Part shown: piece by piece, positions 39-35,963 of the stretch
Layout of the letters: each line of letters starts with the position of its first letter
Position numbering within the stretch: the first letter of the stretch is position 1
Origin: a virus
Reading direction: 5' to 3' (one strand)
DNA length: 64,000 nucleotides
IMG/VR virus record: IMGVR_UViG_3300008114_000003
Coordinates: 1 to 64,000 of that record
Position numbers and translations under genes: made by a program
The notes under the pieces: model-generated
Database searches by the model: none
The model's input: only the letters and a program-made list of their open reading frames with translations
What the model was told of the DNA's origin: nothing

Positions 39-1037
39 ATGATTAAGAAATATTTAGAATTCATTAATGAGTCTTTTAGTAAAAATAGAGAAGATTTTAA
101 CTCATTAGGTGAATGGGTTGAGTATTTATATTCAACTTTAGAAGGTGATGATTTAGAATATATCAAAAATATAGTAAATAGAGAATTTAATATTAGTAGA
201 GAAGATGATTTGAGTGATATACCTTCTGATATTAGATTATCAAATGCGATTAACATATTAGATGATAATACTAAAAATGAAATAGAATCATTAATAAAAG
301 ATTTTATTGATAATGGTATACAGGAGAAAGAAACTAATGTAGAATTTTCAACTGATTTAGAACCCCTAACTGAATCAGAAATTACTATGGCTGGTAAAAA
401 CATTTTCACATCATTTTTAAAGTGTTTAACAGCACTTGGTCAAAAAGATGTCTTACCAAATAATGAAAAATTACCAGATGACTATCTTTTTTATTTTTTA
501 TTCGAATTAAATTCAGATGATGTTAAATCTATATTTAATAGATTTTCATCACTTAAAAGATATGTAAATGATGTACCATATGATAGAAATGAGATTGAAC
601 TTTATTATGGTATTAAAGATAATGGTTTGTTTGAATATGGTATTGTTAATCAACCAATAGGACAATTTAAATTATCAACAAGTGTTATAAAATGGATTCT
701 TGGTTTAGATCTTAAATCAGCTTATAATCTTAAAAAGAGCTTAGTAAACTTTAATTTTAATGAATTGATGTTAATTAGTAAAATTAAAAAAGATTTAACT
801 AGTTTCAATCCAGGTTTCTTTGATAAGAAATCAAAAGTGTGTGTAAGTGATAGAGTAATATCTATTGGTTATTATAACATTGGTACTTGGGATAATGGTC
901 AATTAGACTTAGGAGAATATGAAAATATAAAACAAAACTTTAATAACTGGATTATAAATAAAAAATGGTCTGATAAAGTACAATATAATGTTAAACCAAA
1001 CAATTCTTGGGTTTATTTCAACTTAAAATTAAAATAA
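39..1037 (+). CDS. Hypothetical protein with T4-like capsid-targeting N-terminus
   Basis: A 332-residue protein of unknown function. It begins MIKKYLEFINES, which closely matches the T4 capsid-targeting sequence MKTYQEFIAEA, including a candidate prohead-protease site after INE (consensus L/I-x-E). By analogy it may be packaged in the head and injected. The rest is acidic and mostly helical in look, with an aromatic C-terminal part (NIGTWDNGQLDLGEY and NNSWVYFNLKLK). I do not recognise an enzymatic motif. The start is well supported by the tag and by the TTTAATATATAA element 3 bases upstream. The next gene follows after 4 bases. Confidence 0.8.
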   Translation: MIKKYLEFINESFSKNREDFNSLGEWVEYLYSTLEGDDLEYIKNIVNREFNISREDDLSDIPSDIRLSNAINILDDNTKNEIESLIKDFIDNGIQEKETNVEFSTDLEPLTESEITMAGKNIFTSFLKCLTALGQKDVLPNNEKLPDDYLFYFLFELNSDDVKSIFNRFSSLKRYVNDVPYDRNEIELYYGIKDNGLFEYGIVNQPIGQFKLSTSVIKWILGLDLKSAYNLKKSLVNFNFNELMLISKIKKDLTSFNPGFFDKKSKVCVSDRVISIGYYNIGTWDNGQLDLGEYENIKQNFNNWIINKKWSDKVQYNVKPNNSWVYFNLKLK

Positions 1038-1041
1038 AATT

Positions 1042-1323
1042 ATGAAATATTTAAAAAAATTTAAAGAAGGTTTTGACTATAATAAAGATTGGGAAGATAT
1101 GTCAAAAGAAGAAAGAGAAGAAACTGGTATTCCTGCTTATAGAAACGTAGAAGATGATATTGATTTCATTATTACTAAAATTAAGGAAAAATATCCAAAA
1201 GGAGAGGTAAATGATAAATCAGACTTGATTGATATGATTGTTTGGTTTGAGGAGGAATTTCAAAGAGATATTAAAGATGAAGATAAAGTTATTGATATAC
1301 TAACACATGAATATAACTTATAA
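1042..1323 (+). CDS. Small hypothetical protein, weak capsid-tag-like start
   Basis: A 93-residue acidic protein beginning MKYLKKFKEGF, a weaker version of the MKxIKLFEAF tag seen elsewhere in the window; it lacks a clean (L/I)xE site. The body is rich in D, E and K (for example DMSKEEREETGIP) and looks helical. It is cotranscribed with the preceding tagged gene (4-base gap) and is followed at once by a terminator hairpin. Function unknown. Confidence 0.7.
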   Translation: MKYLKKFKEGFDYNKDWEDMSKEEREETGIPAYRNVEDDIDFIITKIKEKYPKGEVNDKSDLIDMIVWFEEEFQRDIKDEDKVIDILTHEYNL

Positions 1324-1333
1324 ACATTTAACT

Positions 1334-1365
1334 AAAACTTTTCTATAAAAAGAAAAGTTTTTTTG
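1334..1365 (+). terminator. Rho-independent terminator
   Basis: Inverted repeat AAAACTTTTC (1334-1343) and GAAAAGTTTT (1352-1361) followed by a T run. It closes the transcription unit that ends with the 93-residue gene. Confidence 0.75.
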
Positions 1366-1368
1366 TTT

Positions 1369-1755
1369 ATGGAAAAACCAAATAAAGAAGAATTAATGAA
1401 AAAATGGGCACCTATTTTAAATAATATTGGTGTCACTGGATCAAAAGCCGATTGGATGGCTGAATATGCTGAACTACATTCAAATACAAAAATTGAAGAA
1501 AATACAACATCACCAGGTGGAACTTCAGAAGAAGAAATGGAAAGAATTAAAAATGAAGTTAAAGCTGAAAATCGTGATAGAATAATAGAATCTTTAATCG
1601 AAGATAAGGAATATAAAGAAATGGATATTACTGAACACCCTGATTATAAAGGACCGGTTGGTACTCTATTTCACTTGGATTTTAAATACGGAGACGATAC
1701 TGATGATGAAGAAGTTAAAAGAAGTGTTAAAACACTTGGTAAGAAGAAAAAGTAA
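1369..1755 (+). CDS. Hypothetical acidic protein, 128 aa
   Basis: Unknown function. I choose the ATG at 1369 (MEKPNKEELMKKW) rather than the in-frame TTG six bases earlier, which sits in the terminator T run. The N-terminal part (LMKKWAPILNNIGVTGSKADWMAEYAE, positions 1396-1476) resembles short helical segments of phage head-completion or scaffold-type proteins, but this is only a resemblance. The C-terminus is charged and ends in a lysine run. The 3' end overlaps the next gene. Confidence 0.7.
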   Translation: MEKPNKEELMKKWAPILNNIGVTGSKADWMAEYAELHSNTKIEENTTSPGGTSEEEMERIKNEVKAENRDRIIESLIEDKEYKEMDITEHPDYKGPVGTLFHLDFKYGDDTDDEEVKRSVKTLGKKKK

Positions 1756-1903
1756 TTATAAAAAATTTTCTATAAAGATTGATGAAAAAACTGGAGAGGT
1801 TGACTTATCAGGTCATTTTATATCTTTCAATAACTATTGGTTTCCATACAACCCAAGACATGATAAAAGAAGAGTAAAAATTAAAAAAATTTATGATAAA
1901 TAA
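1703..1903 (+). CDS. Small basic hypothetical protein
   Basis: An ORF of about 66 residues starting at one of two adjacent ATGs (1703 or 1706), overlapping the previous gene by about 50 bases and the next by 11. The distinctive part lies after 1755: KKFSIKIDEKTGEVDLSGHF followed by NNYWFPYNPRHDKRRVKI. The region reads as coding and fills the gap between two good genes, but the start is uncertain. Function unknown. Confidence 0.55.
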   Translation: MMKKLKEVLKHLVRRKSNYKKFSIKIDEKTGEVDLSGHFISFNNYWFPYNPRHDKRRVKIKKIYDK

Positions 1904-2156
1904 AATAGTGGAGTTTGTAAAAAGTCTCTTTGTTAAGAAAAAGAAGAAAAATGTATGGGAGGATATAACTGGTATGTTACAAACATTCGAAAGAAGAAAT
2001 AAAATTGCTAAATTGTATGGTAAGAAATCACCGACATATCCGATTCCATATCGTAAGACTTTTTATATTCCAATAGGTGAGTTAGATAAAAATAAGGCTC
2101 AAAAAGAGATAAGTAAACTAATCTCTTCTTATAAAGAAGATATATTTAAAAAATAA
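1893..2156 (+). CDS. Small basic hypothetical protein, 87 aa
   Basis: Begins MINKIVEFVKSLFVKKKKKN, an amphipathic or basic N-terminus. It then has WEDITGMLQTFERRNKIAKL and FYIPIGELDKNKAQKEIS. The second segment is faintly like the FYVDVGNLPKxKAEQY segment of T4-type portal proteins, but the gene is far too short to be a portal. I treat it as unknown. The start overlaps the previous gene by 11 bases, suggesting coupling. Confidence 0.65.
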   Translation: MINKIVEFVKSLFVKKKKKNVWEDITGMLQTFERRNKIAKLYGKKSPTYPIPYRKTFYIPIGELDKNKAQKEISKLISSYKEDIFKK

Positions 2157-2189
2157 AAAATAGAGACATGAGGTGATTATATATACATT

Positions 2190-2525
2190 ATGATAAATGT
2201 ATATTTAATCTCATCAGAATTTGGAGGTAAAAAACTTTATAAAATAGGTTACACAAAAAGAAGTATAAATGAAAGAATGAAAGAATTCAAAACTGGTAAT
2301 GCTTCTGACCTAAAAATAGAAAAGTCATTTCATTCAAAGTGGGGGACTAAAATAGAAGCACATCTTCATAAGAAGTTTAAAGCTTGTAAAGTAAGTGGGG
2401 AGTGGTTTGATTTAGAAAAAGAAGATATTGATAATTTTGAAACTTATTGTCAAATAGTACATAATAATTTAGAGATTATCGAAAAAAATAATACTTACTT
2501 CATAGATAGAGGTGGTAGATTTTAA
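2190..2525 (+). CDS. GIY-YIG-superfamily nuclease (T5orf172/Mug113-like)
   Basis: A 111-residue single-domain protein. It shows the GIY-YIG arrangement: an N-terminal VYLISSE strand, then LYKIGYT, then an arginine in the helix SINERMKEFKTG, a KIEAHLHKKF helix, and the late GEWFDL motif, which is typical of the T5orf172 or Mug113 branch. It would be a small DNA endonuclease, possibly mobile, without an extra DNA-binding domain. ATTATATATAC lies 3 bases before the ATG. It sits alone between hypothetical genes. Confidence 0.75.
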   Translation: MINVYLISSEFGGKKLYKIGYTKRSINERMKEFKTGNASDLKIEKSFHSKWGTKIEAHLHKKFKACKVSGEWFDLEKEDIDNFETYCQIVHNNLEIIEKNNTYFIDRGGRF

Positions 2526-2541
2526 AAAATAAATAATTTGT

Positions 2542-2814
2542 ATGAACTCAATGAAAGAAATCGCAATTAGAGATTATATTTCTAAAATAAATTTTAAAGT
2601 AGATGATTGGAAATTATCTCAAATCAAGGAAGATATGAGAAGATTTTTAGGTGAAGAGCCAGGTATTGATGTAGTTTACAAAAAAGATGTAATGGTAAAC
2701 GAATTTACTGGTGAAGCGAGAGAGTTTAAAGATGTTGATAAAATATCAATTATCTTCACAGACTTAGATAATAGATTTAAAAAGATTGAATTTATTATTG
2801 ATGAAAAATTGTAA
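2542..2814 (+). CDS. Hypothetical protein, 90 aa
   Basis: Unknown function. It is an acidic alpha/beta-like small protein (MNSMKEIAIRDYISKINFKV at the start, KISIIFTDLDNRFKKIEFII near the end). It sits 16 bases after the GIY-YIG gene and 8 bases before the next gene, so is probably cotranscribed with both. No motif recognised. Confidence 0.65.
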   Translation: MNSMKEIAIRDYISKINFKVDDWKLSQIKEDMRRFLGEEPGIDVVYKKDVMVNEFTGEAREFKDVDKISIIFTDLDNRFKKIEFIIDEKL

Positions 2815-2822
2815 TAATTATA

Positions 2823-3059
2823 ATGAATGATAAAATTGGAAAATATTTTTTAGATTTAAATAAAATACACAAATTAGAAGATAAAGAAGAAAGACAGGCA
2901 ATTCACACCTACTATAAAGATATGTTATATGCTTATGGTGATGGTAGAAATGAAATGGCTGAGTCCATTAAGTGGACTTTAATTAATTCTGGTTATTTAT
3001 TAAATAATGATCAGATTAAAAGAGATGAAAAAATAAATGATATTTTAAATGGAGATTAA
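2823..3059 (+). CDS. Hypothetical protein, 78 aa
   Basis: A small helical, charged protein (LEDKEERQAIHTYYKDMLYA in the middle). Its last codons overlap the start of the following gene by 11 bases (the ATG lies in AATGGAGATTAA), an arrangement typical of translational coupling. No recognisable function. Confidence 0.65.
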   Translation: MNDKIGKYFLDLNKIHKLEDKEERQAIHTYYKDMLYAYGDGRNEMAESIKWTLINSGYLLNNDQIKRDEKINDILNGD

Positions 3060-3423
3060 AGCCGATATAGTAGATTATATGGGTAAATATGAAAATGGTG
3101 TCTTGGTATTAATTAGTCTAAATATAGATAATAAATTTTACGAAGGTACCATTTTTTATTCAGATAAAAATATTGTCTTAACGACTGATGAAACAGTTGA
3201 AGATGTAATTGGCATGAATATAGAATTATGGGATGGATATAAAGACTTATTAGAAAGTATTTTAAAAAAATTAATTCCATATGAAGAAATATCTAAAAGA
3301 TTGGATGAAGTTGACTTTGAAAAATATGTTTCATATTACGAAGAAGACTTAGGTAAAATTGTTTTAGATGAAGTAAAACCGGAGGAAATAATAACAGCAA
3401 CTAACTCAAACTTATTTCAATAA
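3049..3423 (+). CDS. Hypothetical protein, 124 aa
   Basis: An acidic protein with a beta-rich N-terminal half (VLVLISLNIDNKFYEGTIFY) and a helical C-terminal half. It is the last small gene before the split gp46 locus and is separated from it by a 32-base AT-rich gap. Function not recognised. Confidence 0.65.
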   Translation: MEIKADIVDYMGKYENGVLVLISLNIDNKFYEGTIFYSDKNIVLTTDETVEDVIGMNIELWDGYKDLLESILKKLIPYEEISKRLDEVDFEKYVSYYEEDLGKIVLDEVKPEEIITATNSNLFQ

Positions 3424-3455
3424 AATTAGTATAATTTAAAAATTATTTTTATATT

Positions 3456-3755
3456 ATGCTGATTAGCGAAATTGGAATTAGAGGTTTTAAATCATTCGGA
3501 AATAATGAACAAGTCGTAAAATTAAATACAGAAAAAGGAGAACTTATCTTACTAGTTGGAAACAACGGAAATGGAAAATCTGTTGTTGATAAAACTGAGA
3601 TTGAGATAAAATTTTCAATAGATAATTTGAATATAGATGATTTTTGTACTTTTTTGGAAATAATGGATGGGGGAAAGGAATATATTGAATATATAAAAGA
3701 AAATAATTATTCTTTATATGAGCAATATATTAAAAAACAAAAATCAATTAGATAA
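3456..3755 (+). CDS. gp46-like SbcC/Rad50 ATPase, N-terminal fragment plus split-intein N part
   Basis: Residues 1-41 are the start of an SMC-type ATPase of the T4 gp46 (SbcC/Rad50) family: SEIGIRGFKSFG, then Walker A as GNNGNGK. At residue 42 the reading changes to SVVDKTEIEIKF and 58 intein-like residues follow before the stop. The C-terminal partner at 5246 resumes gp46 with SSFLSSFEYTLYG directly after an intein ending (LSHN). Joining the exteins recreates GNNGNGKSSF, an exact Walker A. The protein would provide the N-extein and a Ser1-type IntN containing block A. The recombination exonuclease would need trans-splicing to work. Confidence 0.85.
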   Translation: MLISEIGIRGFKSFGNNEQVVKLNTEKGELILLVGNNGNGKSVVDKTEIEIKFSIDNLNIDDFCTFLEIMDGGKEYIEYIKENNYSLYEQYIKKQKSIR

Positions 3756-5614
3756 TTATCTAATTGATTTTCACCCAGATAAAAAAAATGAGATCTTAAA
3801 TCTATTTAAAGATTTTAATTTTGAATGTGGGAAGACCTCATTTATATCAAAAATGAAGTCTTTAATAGGAATGCCAAAGTTTGGTAAAAAAACTCTAATA
3901 TATTGGTTAAGTAGAGGCTGGGATGAAGAAACCGCTAAAATAAAAAGAGTACCAACAATTAAAAATGTTGAAACATCTCCTATGAATATAAATTTTTGGT
4001 TAAAAAGGGGATTTAGTTTAGAAGATTCTGAATATAAAATAAAATCTCAACGAAAAATGAACAAGGAATATTGGATGGAGAGAGGATATACATTGGAAAA
4101 TTCTATAATAAAGTCAAATGAGTTTCAGAAAAATAGTAATAGTTGTTTTATATCAAAATTGGAAAATGATGTGGAGTTTAGAGAAATTATATCATCAAAA
4201 AGAAGTAATAATATAAATTACTGGATAAACAAAGGTTTTAATTTAGAAGAATCTAAAATTAAATTATCTAATAGACAATCAACATTTTCATTAGAAAAGT
4301 GTATTTCTAAATATGGATCCGATGAAGGTAAAAGAATTTGGTCAGAACGCCAAAATAAATGGCGAAAATCTTTGATGGAATCCGATTACAATGGAATCGA
4401 TGATAAAGATTCTAGATCCATAGAACATTTTAAAAATAAGTATGGTGATATTTGGTTGGAAAAGTATATAGAAACTACATCATTTAAAGATAAAGAAGAT
4501 ATTAGATATCTATTATCATTTGAGAATTATAAAGATATGATAATAACTCTTATAAATGATAATTTAACTTTAGCTAAAATAAGTTATAGACTTAATTATT
4601 CAGTATTATATGAAATATACAATACGAATAAAGAAGATATGTATTCATTTCTTTTGGAAAATTATGAAAAAACTTATGGAACTCCATCATATTATGAAAA
4701 AATGTATGGTGATAAATGGGTAGATGAGTTTATAAAATCTAATAATTTTAAAGATAAAGAAGATATTGTTTTTTTATTATCTTTTGATAATTATTTTAAA
4801 TTAGTAGATTATTTAATGGAAAACTTTAGTATAACTGATATTGTTTTAAAAATAAAAAAAGTTATAGTATCATATTTTTATAAAACTACTTATGAAAAAA
4901 TGTTTGAATATCTAATGTCTGTTAATCCAAGTATAAAATGCAAATATGGTTACATGAGATATTATAATAATCATCTTTGTAGAAGTTCCGGTGAGTATAT
5001 GATTGCTAAATTTTTAAAATATAATGAAATTTCATATAAGTACGAAAAATTATATCCAAATTCTAAAAAAAGATGTGATTTTTATTTAATTGATCATGAT
5101 ATTTATATAGAATATACAGGTATGTATAAAATCAAAAAACACAATGATAAATATAATGAAAAAAAATCATTTTGTATTGATAATAATATTAAACATTTTT
5201 TTTCAAACAATATAGAAGAAATAGAAAATAAAATAAAAAGTATATATGGAATTTAAAATAGATCTAAAAAGGCTGAATATTCTAAATAATAAACTGTCTA
5301 TCATCAATAAAGGTGTTAAAGTAAATACTCCAAATGGTTGGAAAAATATAAAAGAAATTGGTATAACATCACCTAATTCCGAAAAAATAATAATAAAAAC
5401 AAAGGATTTTGAATTGATTGGTTCTCCAAATCACAGAGTTAAATATTTAGAAAATTGGATTTTCTTAAAAAATCTAAAAATAGGTGATTTTATAAATACT
5501 AAAAATGGTGTACAGACTATTTTATCAATATTAAAAGATGATAAAAGAGAAGATTTATGGGATATTGAAGTAGATGGTCATGAATACTATTCTAATGGAA
5601 TATTAAGTCATAAT
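3579..5614 (+). mobile_element. Atypically split intein with inserted endonuclease gene
   Basis: Intein boundaries are Ser42 of the first ORF (codon 3579-3581) and the His-Asn pair ending at 5614. IntN is 58 residues (3579-3752) and IntC 123 residues (5246-5614). IntC contains NTPNGWKNIKEI, the block B-like SPNHRV, block F-like DIEVDGHEYYSNG and block G LSHN followed by Ser+1. The three ORFs lie in three different frames, and the middle endonuclease gene overlaps the first by 38 bases and the last by 11. This fits the fractured-gene arrangement known from environmental phages (split intein plus Vsr-like homing endonuclease), but the split here lies before block B rather than between B and F. 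Confidence 0.8.
3718..5256 (+). CDS. Free-standing homing endonuclease, PD-(D/E)XK or Vsr-like, between intein halves
   Basis: A 512-residue protein. The N-terminal 200 residues hold about four repeats of a YWxxRGxxxEES pattern (WLSRGWDEETAKIK, WLKRGFSLEDSEYK, WMERGYTLENSIIK, WINKGFNLEESKIK), probable DNA-binding units. A larger unit is duplicated further on (KYGDIWLEKYIETTSFKDKE and MYGDKWVDEFIKSNNFKDKE). The C-terminal 90 residues carry the nuclease core: SSGEYMIAKFL, YEKLYP, RCDFYLIDHDIYIEYTG, compatible with a PD-(D/E)XK or Vsr-like (EDxHD) fold. It would cut intein-less gp46 alleles and spread the insertion. The start ATG at 3718 lies inside the first ORF. Confidence 0.75.
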   Translation: MSNILKNKNQLDNYLIDFHPDKKNEILNLFKDFNFECGKTSFISKMKSLIGMPKFGKKTLIYWLSRGWDEETAKIKRVPTIKNVETSPMNINFWLKRGFSLEDSEYKIKSQRKMNKEYWMERGYTLENSIIKSNEFQKNSNSCFISKLENDVEFREIISSKRSNNINYWINKGFNLEESKIKLSNRQSTFSLEKCISKYGSDEGKRIWSERQNKWRKSLMESDYNGIDDKDSRSIEHFKNKYGDIWLEKYIETTSFKDKEDIRYLLSFENYKDMIITLINDNLTLAKISYRLNYSVLYEIYNTNKEDMYSFLLENYEKTYGTPSYYEKMYGDKWVDEFIKSNNFKDKEDIVFLLSFDNYFKLVDYLMENFSITDIVLKIKKVIVSYFYKTTYEKMFEYLMSVNPSIKCKYGYMRYYNNHLCRSSGEYMIAKFLKYNEISYKYEKLYPNSKKRCDFYLIDHDIYIEYTGMYKIKKHNDKYNEKKSFCIDNNIKHFFSNNIEEIENKIKSIYGI

Positions 5615-7204
5615 TCATCATTTCTATCTTCCTTTGAATATACACTTTATGGTAAAGTAAGAGGTGGCCGTCAAAAAAAATGGTCTACTTTATCAACTCT
5701 CCCAAATAGAATTAATGGTGAATTATTAAATAGAATTTCATTCAATTCTAACGGTGTTGATGTTGAAATCAAAAGAGGTATTTCACCAAATAAGTTGGAA
5801 CTTTGGGAAAACGGAGTTCACAATGAAAGAGCTGGTAAATCAAATATAGATGAAAAGATTGAAAAGTATGTAGGTATGGATATTGAAACATTCAAATCTT
5901 TTATATCTATGTCTATAAATGACTTCAAAAACTTTATATCTCTTTCAAATGAAGAAAAACAACTACTTTTAGATAAACTTTTTAACTTAGAAGTAATCAA
6001 TATCTTAAATAGTATTTTAAAAGATATAAACAAGTCAAATAAAACAAGAATGGCTTCTTTAAACTCTGAAATAAATACTTTAGAAGAGTCTATTGAATCA
6101 ATTCAAAGATCAATTGATAAAACTATTAAACTTTCAATTGAAAAAGAAAAATTAAATCTACAAGCTGATATTGATCGTCTTATGGAAGAAATGAATTCTA
6201 AAAAGGAAGATTATAAAGCTCTTAAAGAAAAAGTAGAAAAGATTAAAGAAAAAGAGGAAATTTTATCAAATGAAATTGAAAATGAAAAAAAACAATACAT
6301 TAATATCCAAAATGATATTCGTAATACACAGAAAGAGATCGATCTTTATGACTCTGGTAAATGTCCCACTTGTAGAACAGATTTTAATTCTGATTACTAC
6401 TCTTCTTTAAGACAATCACTTGTTGAGAAAAAAGAGGGTTTTGAAAAAATTAAGACTGAAATAGACGAGAATATCAAAAATATAAAAGAGAAGCAACTTA
6501 AACTGAAAGAAATTTCAACTAAAACAAATGAAACATTCAGCGAAATGAGTTTCTTTTTAAAGAACTGTAAAACTCAAATTGATCAACTAACTAAAAAGAA
6601 AGAACTTGAACAAGTTGATAACTTACCAAATGTTGACGAGTTTAAAAAATCAATTGAAGAGTTAGAAGAAAAAATGTCTTTTAGTAAAGATAATGTTACA
6701 GTTTGTAAAGATAAAGAATTATACTATAAAGAACTATCTAGAATATTTGGTGAAGATGGTGTTAAAAAGTCAATTATTGCTGGTATTATTAAACCACTTA
6801 ACCACTTTATACATGAGAATATAACTAAGATGGGTATTGCTTTTGATGTTAAGTTGGATGAAACATTTACAGCGGAAATCAGACAATTTGGTTCACCAAT
6901 TGAAAGTGATTCATTATCTACTGGTGAGAATAAAAAAGTAAACATTGCTATTTTAATTGCTTACTTAAAGTTAATCCGAACTAAACGACATATCAATATT
7001 TTGTTCTTAGACGAGGTTTTCTCTTCAATTGATATCGAAGGTATAGATTCTATTTTAACACTCTTAAAATCGTTCGCAAACGAGTATAACATAAATATAT
7101 TTGTTGTACACCATGCTATCTTAAATCAAGAAATGTTCGATAGAATTTTAAAAATAAACAAAGATGTTTTCTCAACAATTGAGGAGGTAAACTTCTTAGA
7201 CTAA
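5246..7204 (+). CDS. Split-intein C part plus gp46-like SbcC/Rad50 ATPase C-terminal fragment
   Basis: Residues 1-123 are IntC, ending DIEVDGHEYYSNG then LSHN. The C-extein starts at Ser (5615) and gives 529 residues, so spliced gp46 would be about 570 residues, close to T4 gp46. Visible features are a long coiled coil, a Rad50-type zinc hook CPTC near residue 372, an ABC signature SLSTGENKK, Walker B ILFLDE followed by VFSSID, and the switch histidine in FVVHHA. With a gp47 nuclease subunit (not seen here) it should resect DNA ends for recombination-dependent replication. All catalytic parts are intact, arguing against decay. Confidence 0.88.
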   Translation: MEFKIDLKRLNILNNKLSIINKGVKVNTPNGWKNIKEIGITSPNSEKIIIKTKDFELIGSPNHRVKYLENWIFLKNLKIGDFINTKNGVQTILSILKDDKREDLWDIEVDGHEYYSNGILSHNSSFLSSFEYTLYGKVRGGRQKKWSTLSTLPNRINGELLNRISFNSNGVDVEIKRGISPNKLELWENGVHNERAGKSNIDEKIEKYVGMDIETFKSFISMSINDFKNFISLSNEEKQLLLDKLFNLEVINILNSILKDINKSNKTRMASLNSEINTLEESIESIQRSIDKTIKLSIEKEKLNLQADIDRLMEEMNSKKEDYKALKEKVEKIKEKEEILSNEIENEKKQYINIQNDIRNTQKEIDLYDSGKCPTCRTDFNSDYYSSLRQSLVEKKEGFEKIKTEIDENIKNIKEKQLKLKEISTKTNETFSEMSFFLKNCKTQIDQLTKKKELEQVDNLPNVDEFKKSIEELEEKMSFSKDNVTVCKDKELYYKELSRIFGEDGVKKSIIAGIIKPLNHFIHENITKMGIAFDVKLDETFTAEIRQFGSPIESDSLSTGENKKVNIAILIAYLKLIRTKRHINILFLDEVFSSIDIEGIDSILTLLKSFANEYNINIFVVHHAILNQEMFDRILKINKDVFSTIEEVNFLD

Positions 7205-34097: not shown

Positions 34098-35963
34098 ATG
34101 GCTAAACGAGATTTAAAATCAGAAATCGACGAAGGGATTCAAGATTATGAACACAGAAAAACATCAAGAAAGAAAAATTCATTATCTAAAGATGAATTTA
34201 ATAAATCAAATGTTCAGTTAACTCCTAAACAACATGATCTCTATAAGGGTATTAGAAATAATATTCTAAGTGTAGTTCATGGACCAGCTGGTACCAGTAA
34301 AACATTCACAACTTGTTATACAGCTTTAGCTTTATTAGCTGATAAGAAAGTTGAAAAAATTATTATTACTAAACCAGTTCAAGAATCCGGTGAGAATTTA
34401 GGTTCTTTACCTGGAACTATAGCTGAAAAAATTGATCCTTATAAACAATCTTATTATACAACGTTTTGTAAAATAATTGGGAAACAAAATACGGATTTTC
34501 TTTTTTCAACTGAAGAGATAAAATTTGAGCCACTTGCTTACATGAGAGGTTCTACTTATGATAATTGTATAATGTTACTTGACGAATGTTTTACTGGTGA
34601 CTCAAGAGTAGTTACAAACCATAAAAAAAGAGGATCTTTTAATTACCTTAGAATGAAAGAAATTGTTAATTATTTCAAAATGGGTAAAGAAATTTATGTA
34701 TCCAGTTGGGATGAAAATAAAAAAATAGTTGAAAATAAAAAAGTAACGGGAGTTTTTGAAAATGGAATTAAAGATATTGTTAAAATATCGGTTAAAGATA
34801 GAGTTAAACCATTAAAAACAACAATAAATCATCCATTTTCCGTATTCAGAGATGGTGAAATTAAATGGGAAGAGGTTAAAAACTTAACCATTGGTGATAG
34901 AATATGTAGATATAAGAATACCGGAACGAATGATTCAACTATATTAACTAATGACTCTTATGATATAATATTAGGTATGTGCTTGGGTGACTCATCATTA
35001 TTACCAAATAAACAATTAAAAAAATCATATAGAATTTCGACAAACCATTCTATAAAACAAATTGAATATATGGAATTTAAAAAAAGTATATTTGAAAATA
35101 TATCATCATATAGAAATTCATTGAAGTCTGGATATACAGGTGAACCACAATGTGGGTTTCAAACTAAATCAATTAATATATCTGAAAATTTTTATAATTC
35201 ACTATATAAAGACTCGAAAAAAACAATTAGTAATGATATTGAGAGATGGTTTACATTAAGAACATTATCCATATGGTATATGGATGATGGATCGGTTTCA
35301 AAATCAAATGGTTGTGTTACATTTTCTACCAATTCAATGAGTTTCACAGAGGTCCAAATATTATCAAATATAATTAAAAATAAATTTGGATTAGAAGGTA
35401 GTGTTTATAAGACATCTAAAGGTAATATTTTAGTACTAAATAAAATAAACTCATTGAAAATGTTTAATTTGACTTCTAAATATATACATCCCTCAATGTT
35501 ATATAAACTAAATAATAGTTTAGAAAGTAATTTTGATAGAAATTTATACAATATAACATATAATGAAAATTTATCAGTAGTCGATATTGTAGATATACAA
35601 AATTCAGAACCTGAAATTGTATATAATATAGAGGTTGATGGTAACCATAATTATTTTGTTGAAAATATATTAGTTCATAATTGTCAAAATGCAAATATTA
35701 AACAACTTATGTTATGGGTTACTCGTTTGGGTAATGATTCAAAAGCTGTTATGATGGGAGATACATCACAATATGATGTGAGAAGAAGAGATTCTGGTTA
35801 TGTAGATTTTATTAAAATGGTTAATGGAATGGATGATCTTTTTATGTTTGAATTTGAAAATCAAGATATTGTTAGAAATAAATTCCTAGTTGAAATAGCA
35901 AACAGATATGATAAATATCGTTTTGAAGAAGAAGAGAAATATAAAAATAATAAAAGAGATTAA
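34098..35963 (+). CDS. PhoH-like ATPase interrupted by an intein
   Basis: 621 residues, of which 365 are an intein; the spliced protein would be 256 residues, normal for phage PhoH-like proteins. Extein motifs: QLTPKQHDLYKGI, Walker A HGPAGTSKTF near residue 60, Walker B MLLDE at 159-163, then after the intein CQNANIKQLMLWVTRLG, GDTSQYDVRR and the terminal NKFLVEIANRYDKY. PhoH-like proteins are common phage ATPases with RNA-linked roles in nucleotide stress, but the exact function is unclear. It is intact at all catalytic positions. AATAATATATAC lies 17 bases upstream. Confidence 0.88.
   Translation: MAKRDLKSEIDEGIQDYEHRKTSRKKNSLSKDEFNKSNVQLTPKQHDLYKGIRNNILSVVHGPAGTSKTFTTCYTALALLADKKVEKIIITKPVQESGENLGSLPGTIAEKIDPYKQSYYTTFCKIIGKQNTDFLFSTEEIKFEPLAYMRGSTYDNCIMLLDECFTGDSRVVTNHKKRGSFNYLRMKEIVNYFKMGKEIYVSSWDENKKIVENKKVTGVFENGIKDIVKISVKDRVKPLKTTINHPFSVFRDGEIKWEEVKNLTIGDRICRYKNTGTNDSTILTNDSYDIILGMCLGDSSLLPNKQLKKSYRISTNHSIKQIEYMEFKKSIFENISSYRNSLKSGYTGEPQCGFQTKSINISENFYNSLYKDSKKTISNDIERWFTLRTLSIWYMDDGSVSKSNGCVTFSTNSMSFTEVQILSNIIKNKFGLEGSVYKTSKGNILVLNKINSLKMFNLTSKYIHPSMLYKLNNSLESNFDRNLYNITYNENLSVVDIVDIQNSEPEIVYNIEVDGNHNYFVENILVHNCQNANIKQLMLWVTRLGNDSKAVMMGDTSQYDVRRRDSGYVDFIKMVNGMDDLFMFEFENQDIVRNKFLVEIANRYDKYRFEEEEKYKNNKRD
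34587..35681 (+). mobile_element. Full-length intein with LAGLIDADG endonuclease in PhoH
   Basis: Begins with Cys (CFTGDSRVVTNHKKRG, block A) directly after Walker B LLDE and ends IEVDGNHNYFVENILVHN (blocks F and G) before Cys+1 of the extein. Block B-like TTINHPFSVF is present. The endonuclease domain has two LAGLIDADG motifs, DIILGMCLGDSSL and LSIWYMDDGSV. All splicing residues appear present (Cys1, His-Asn, Cys+1). It should splice autocatalytically and home into intein-less alleles. Confidence 0.9.

Follow-up and report, generated by a model that had tools for sequence, protein, structure and literature searches.

Fractured genes in phage-like replication genes were described by Dassa et al. 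2009; the papers that cite that work (PMC11766414, PMC7090010) present them as halves of a split intein separated by a free-standing endonuclease open reading frame (ORF). Natural inteins with an atypical split have N-terminal parts (IntN) reported as 15-37 amino acids (aa) long (PMC13014065). GOS-TerL is atypically split and carries Ser1/Cys+1 (PMC11766414), and PolB16 is a natural, atypically split intein with Ser1/Ser+1 (PMC10189870); a 2026 paper listed PolB16 as the single natural cysteine-less atypically split intein, other natural candidates lacking (PMC13014065). Here we analyzed a stretch of 64,000 nucleotides (nt), hereafter the window, from the 126,978-base IMG/VR virus contig IMGVR_UViG_3300008114_000003, and found that a split intein, with an endonuclease ORF between its halves, interrupts the gp46 (SbcC/Rad50-like) gene within Walker A. 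An initial annotation made from the sequence alone had recognized this fractured-gene arrangement, and the endonuclease ORF lies between intein halves not only in the window but also in two other viral loci, L027 and L050. It is the feature shared with the genes of Dassa et al. 2009, from which, as the citing papers portray them, the window differs in its gp46 host, its atypical split and a nuclease that is not Vsr-like. Among the open-access intein papers searched, we did not find gp46 as a host gene.

The gp46 locus comprises three ORFs in three frames, at 3456-3755 (ORF1, 99 aa), 3718-5256 (ORF2, 512 aa) and 5246-7204 (ORF3, 652 aa), which overlap end to end by 38 nt (ORF1/ORF2) and 11 nt (ORF2/ORF3). 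ORF1 follows gp46 through residues 1-41, as far as GNNGNGK, and then turns into 58 intein residues (42-99), with Ser1 of the intein at residue 42. Residues 1-123 of ORF3 form the C-terminal intein part (IntC), which ends in ILSHN, and gp46 restarts at SSFLSSF. Residues 124-648 of ORF3 matched phrog_77 SbcC-like (E 6.5e-63), and the C-extein retains the Zn hook CPTC, the LSTGE signature and the Walker B motif ILFLDE, as read from the translation. The overlapping frames, the passage of ORF1 from gp46 into intein-like sequence at Walker A and the return to gp46 in ORF3 were all as initially annotated, and we hold the order of gp46, intein halves and endonuclease ORF with high confidence.

We compared this locus with gp46 relatives from 30 viral loci and from a number of phage records. 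Nearly all were continuous, reading GK and then Ser or Thr. L025, an intein-less allele with 77% identity, has GNNGNGKSSFLSSFEYTL and so matches the predicted splice product (GNNGNGK-SSFLSSF) exactly, and L025 and other empty alleles show the host protein that removal of the intein would restore. The comparison with intein-less relatives proposed in the initial annotation thus yielded an exact empty site, and the Walker A (GNNGNGKSSF) expected from rejoining the halves is the one found there. The diverged phages L027 and L050 have the same three-gene layout with conserved overlaps at the same gp46 codon, and their IntN and IntC were 41-52% and 61-70% identical to those of the window. No gp46 carriers beyond L027 and L050 emerged from viral-contig scans with the endonuclease, IntC, IntN and sub-blocks, and a scan of genome contigs returned zero further carriers. 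Cyanophage Sf-FP1, whose gp46 match seemed to run into the intein, and LR756504 were ruled out as carriers; each has a continuous, intein-less gp46.

In the gp46 tree the three carriers did not form a clade, and intein presence needs three changes, forced by well-supported branches. For IntC the window was closer to L050 (70%) than to L027 (61-62%), whereas for gp46 it was closer to L027 (65%) than to L050 (62%). The tree and this discordant ranking fit horizontal movement of the element; a single gain with later losses could also have produced the pattern. The ratio of nonsynonymous to synonymous change (pN/pS) was below 1 in all parts and all pairs (IntC about 0.3-0.45, endonuclease gene about 0.45-0.6), and purifying selection acts on IntC, the endonuclease gene and gp46.

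IntC matched Pfam Intein_splicing (E 9.6e-5) and scored over the cut-off of TIGR01443, and in a PDB sequence search it matched VidaL best (1.5e-9), followed by gp41-1 and CatC (5e-4). Its structural model, with a mean predicted local distance difference test score (pLDDT) of 64, has a Hint fold: the best Foldseek match was VidaL (E 2.8e-6), all seven PDB fold matches at E<=0.001 were inteins, and the overall list was made up of inteins or Hint domains related to them. ORF3 carries blocks B, F and G, so that the split falls between blocks A and B. Block B (GSPxHRV) is invariant in the three loci, with its histidine present and Ser where Thr is usual, and the class 1 nucleophile set of Ser1, terminal HN and Ser+1 is found in three of three. 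Ser1, Thr6 and Ile8 of IntN are also common to all three loci, the T6/I8 pattern hinting at a possible block A; with IntN anchored at the nucleophile, the similarity to TerL and helicase IntN was equalled by 7 of 2000 shuffles. Together with the intein-less alleles and the two further natural examples, the family matches and the Hint fold modelled for IntC support the split intein. Of the atypical split before block B with a very short N part, as initially annotated, the split site stands and the shortness does not, IntN being 58, 56 and 56 aa long in the window, L027 and L050. IntN and IntC total 179-181 aa, compared with 153-179 aa in contiguous TerL P-loop inteins, and therefore apparently no part of the intein is missing. 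The last ~25 residues of IntN (YIxYIKExNxxLYExYIK) are conserved among the window (3579-3752), L027 (3950-4117) and L050 (4534-4701) and absent from known short IntN.

AceL-TerL, GOS-TerL, Cat and VidaL are likewise split before block B and have homologous IntC, and GOS-TerL shares Ser1; the window differs in its gp46 host, its longer IntN and a Ser at +1 in place of the Cys of the TerL examples. The PolB16 OarG intein (PMC10189870), also metagenomic, resembles the window in split and nucleophiles but has another host gene, an IntN of 15 aa, an IntC of 168 aa (123 in the window) and the motif NX histidine that the window lacks, and it was not among the PDB sequence matches of the window IntC. 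The contiguous TerL P-loop inteins of Kuttervirus, Taipeivirus, Vapseptimavirus, Kujavirus and L042 occupy the same Walker A codon (GK^[ST]), with IntC 28-42% identical to that of the window and a similar total length; unlike the window, they are contiguous, start with Cys1 and lie in an unrelated ATPase. Like the window, Pseudomonas phage Cassandra has a fractured P-loop gene, UvsX (L053), with homologous IntC and an endonuclease with YWxxKG repeats, whereas it has Cys1, a 17-aa IntN and a Vsr-like nuclease. In this cultured phage (L053, 1158-4203) UvsX is split by the 17-aa IntN (CLPETAKVKIRLSKKQS), the endonuclease gene and a 128-aa IntC; the record annotates just two UvsX-like pieces, not a fractured gene.

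ORF2 contains four YWxxRG-type repeats and a tandem duplication (4400-4530 and 4664-4794). The endonucleases of the window and L027 were 47-48% identical throughout. That of L050 (4673-5770), at the same site as the window ORF, was 51% identical to it over residues 1-220 (E 3.8e-68) and unrelated beyond (best E 9.5). The L050 C-terminus matched the Vsr-like domain of a helicase endonuclease (E 4.6e-20), phrog_22677 and phage genes annotated as VSR endonuclease. The window domain matched the nuclease families phrog_559, 4538 and 9084, and its E426, D454 and E465, conserved in two sequences (window and L027), form a plausible PD-(D/E)XK core, consistent with the helix-strand-strand-strand core of a low-confidence model. 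Judged by sequence, the window nuclease is thus probably PD-(D/E)XK-like. A PDB fold search gave weak matches to I-Bth0305I and Vsr and no stronger ones, and a PDB sequence search gave no match. A Vsr-like or EDxHD nuclease was rejected for the window, given the E of 9.5 against the L050 domain and the weak fold matches. The repeats named in the initial annotation hold; of its two nuclease types (PD-(D/E)XK or Vsr-like), the first is the probable one and the second does not hold. The repeats of residues 1-220 also occur in the helicase endonuclease (E 7e-11) and the Cassandra UvsX endonuclease (E 8e-6). It appears that a targeting module has stayed constant while the nuclease behind it was exchanged, PD-(D/E)XK-like in the window and L027 and Vsr-like in L050. 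With a single homing site in common, the two types offer a natural test of homing endonuclease rebuilding.

We consider it very probable that a mobile, naturally split intein fractures gp46. Anatomy, homology, the exact empty site, purifying selection, patchy distribution and nuclease-domain exchange are directly supported, and we infer trans-splicing, target-site cleavage and mobility. The three coupled ORFs would be translated, and the 99-aa N-precursor (gp46 1-41 plus IntN) would pair with the 652-aa C-precursor (IntC plus gp46), IntN completing the Hint fold. Ser1 would attack Lys-1 in an N-O acyl shift, the acyl group would pass to Ser+1, and Asn cyclization and an ester-to-amide shift would release a gp46 of 570 residues in which Walker A is whole (GNNGNGKSS). 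Our confidence in this chemistry is moderate, as it is in the mobility of the element. The middle ORF would act as a homing endonuclease, its N-terminal repeat module recognizing the empty gp46 P-loop site and its PD-(D/E)XK-like domain cutting it, and break repair would copy the whole element into intein-less phages; the patchy distribution of carriers fits homing. A possible part for gp46/gp47 in intron homing has been noted, as has the idea that overlapping genes, by coupling, may keep endonuclease translation low (PMC2988022); both would suit the gp46 locus.

Several observations weigh against this explanation. The profile search suggested for both intein parts (ORF1 residues 42-99 and ORF3 residues 1-123) succeeded for IntC and not for IntN alone, whose hhalign score of 10.0 did not exceed the shuffle mean of 10.5, i.e. 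no signal above chance, perhaps as expected because the piece is so short. Selection was also weakest on IntN, with pN/pS of 0.98, 0.58 and 0.50 over 46 codons. The usual histidine of block F is missing in L027 and L050, and no histidine precedes the block B histidine in any of the three loci, although a motif NX histidine upstream of block B is expected in Ser1 inteins (PMC10189870). The assignment of the endonuclease domain draws on weak matches and a low-confidence model.

The weak IntN signal, and the position of the endonuclease gene inside the intein-coding region, would suit a broken gene, in which an endonuclease inserted into a gp46 that already bore an intein and left two halves now in decay. 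The three diverged loci have nevertheless kept the frames, overlaps, Ser1, block B histidine, HN and Ser+1, selection is purifying on IntC, the endonuclease gene and gp46, and the gp46 motifs are intact, making decay very improbable. Rather less probable still is that the gp46 parts act as separate polypeptides with the intein parts serving only for association: unspliced ORF1 does read GNNGNGKS, but its Walker A would carry a 58-residue extra tail, the residues that would catalyse splicing are conserved in each of the three loci, and the empty allele is an exact match to the splice product.

We give almost no credence to the two remaining possibilities. An endonuclease ORF between exon-like parts would suit RNA-level joining by a group I/II intron or otherwise, but the ORFs overlap, non-coding flanks are absent and the coding parts adjoining the exteins are intein; a group I/II intron was rejected, with no Rfam intron covariance match at E<=1. 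An assembly artefact is conceivable in a metagenomic contig, but 13,117 nt around the locus are base-identical in two other IMG/VR contigs (L005 and L015), so that an error confined to a single data set does not explain the layout, and with its recurrence at the same codon in L027 and L050 neither chance nor misassembly accounts for it.

Within the split-intein explanation, the serine chemistry deserves comment. Ser1 at the gp46 Walker A site, as initially annotated for the window, was found in all three loci; the novelty attached to Ser1 itself does not hold, given the atypically split Ser1 precedents GOS-TerL and PolB16. Cysteines in the intein number one in the window (C23), one in L027 (C103) and zero in L050, and the three loci add three natural Ser1/Ser+1 atypically split inteins, one of them cysteine-free, where one was known (PMC13014065). 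Because the nearest relatives found are Cys1 P-loop inteins of TerL (L042, 42%) and the NX histidine is absent, the gp46 inteins probably underwent a separate Cys-to-Ser change, the deep tree being poorly resolved. The missing histidine makes the general role proposed for it in Ser1 splicing directly testable. More broadly, and with slightly less than an even chance in our estimate, these may be a natural cysteine-independent atypically split family whose Ser1/Ser+1 chemistry evolved apart from polymerase-type Ser1 inteins, and which is carried from one phage Walker A motif to another by homing endonucleases with an exchangeable nuclease domain and a constant targeting module, the gp46 product perhaps helping to repair the copying break.

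Features of the gp46 locus in the window.
Feature	Position	Strand	Evidence
gp46 N-extein, residues 1-41, ending GNNGNGK (Walker A)	3456..3578	+	SMC_N/AAA_23-type N-terminus; continuous in intein-less relatives, e.g. L025
IntN, 58 aa from Ser1 (block A-like SVVDKTEIEI...), plus stop	3579..3755	+	Ser1, Thr6, Ile8 common to L027 and L050; anchored similarity
Endonuclease ORF, 512 aa, between intein halves, overlapping both	3718..5256	+	L027 ortholog, 47-48% over full length
Endonuclease module 1, residues 1-220: YWxxRG repeats and KYG...RQxKW segment, putative target recognition	3718..4377	+	51% to L050
Tandem duplication inside endonuclease, 88-codon spacing	4400..4794	+	Repeat D1, 131 nt, 72%; helical in model
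PD-(D/E)XK-like nuclease domain (E426, D454, E465 conserved in L027)	4900..5253	+	phrog_559, 4538, 9084; model core; weak fold matches
IntC, 123 aa: block B (GSPNHRV), block F region, block G (LSHN)	5246..5614	+	Pfam, TIGR01443, VidaL by sequence and fold
gp46 C-extein, 529 aa from Ser+1: CPTC, LSTGE, ILFLDE	5615..7204	+	phrog_77 SbcC-like, E 6.5e-63; motifs
32-nt perfect palindrome, ORF1 stop and early endonuclease ORF; possible hairpin	3740..3771		Only palindrome with arms >=11 in 64 kb

The palindrome has a predicted hairpin of -13 kcal/mol and was not found in L027 or L050. Hairpins also occur near the start of the endonuclease genes of NrdA (L072, 6430-6459) and Cassandra (L053, 1564-1589).

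Contig G002, identical to the window over 13.1 kb, carries two more fractured genes, a DnaB-like helicase and NrdA. The helicase (L072, i.e. G002:33500-43500; 597-3692) is split at its Walker A motif (NNGK|C ... HN|SLW) and has a 37-aa IntN from Cys1, a Vsr-like endonuclease and a 150-aa IntC. In NrdA (L072, 4785-8666), the third fractured gene of this phage, the split intein is canonical and its halves flank a GIY-YIG endonuclease ORF. Contiguous LAGLIDADG inteins were seen in a PhoH-like ATPase of the window (34098-35963), adjoining Walker B (LLDE|C ... HN|CQN), and in a flavodoxin/FMN-reductase-like gene outside it (L073, 6938-8854, G000). The TerL of L042 (4012-7546) has, in addition to its contiguous Walker A intein, a second intein further on, whose halves, divided upstream of block B, flank a homing endonuclease ORF.

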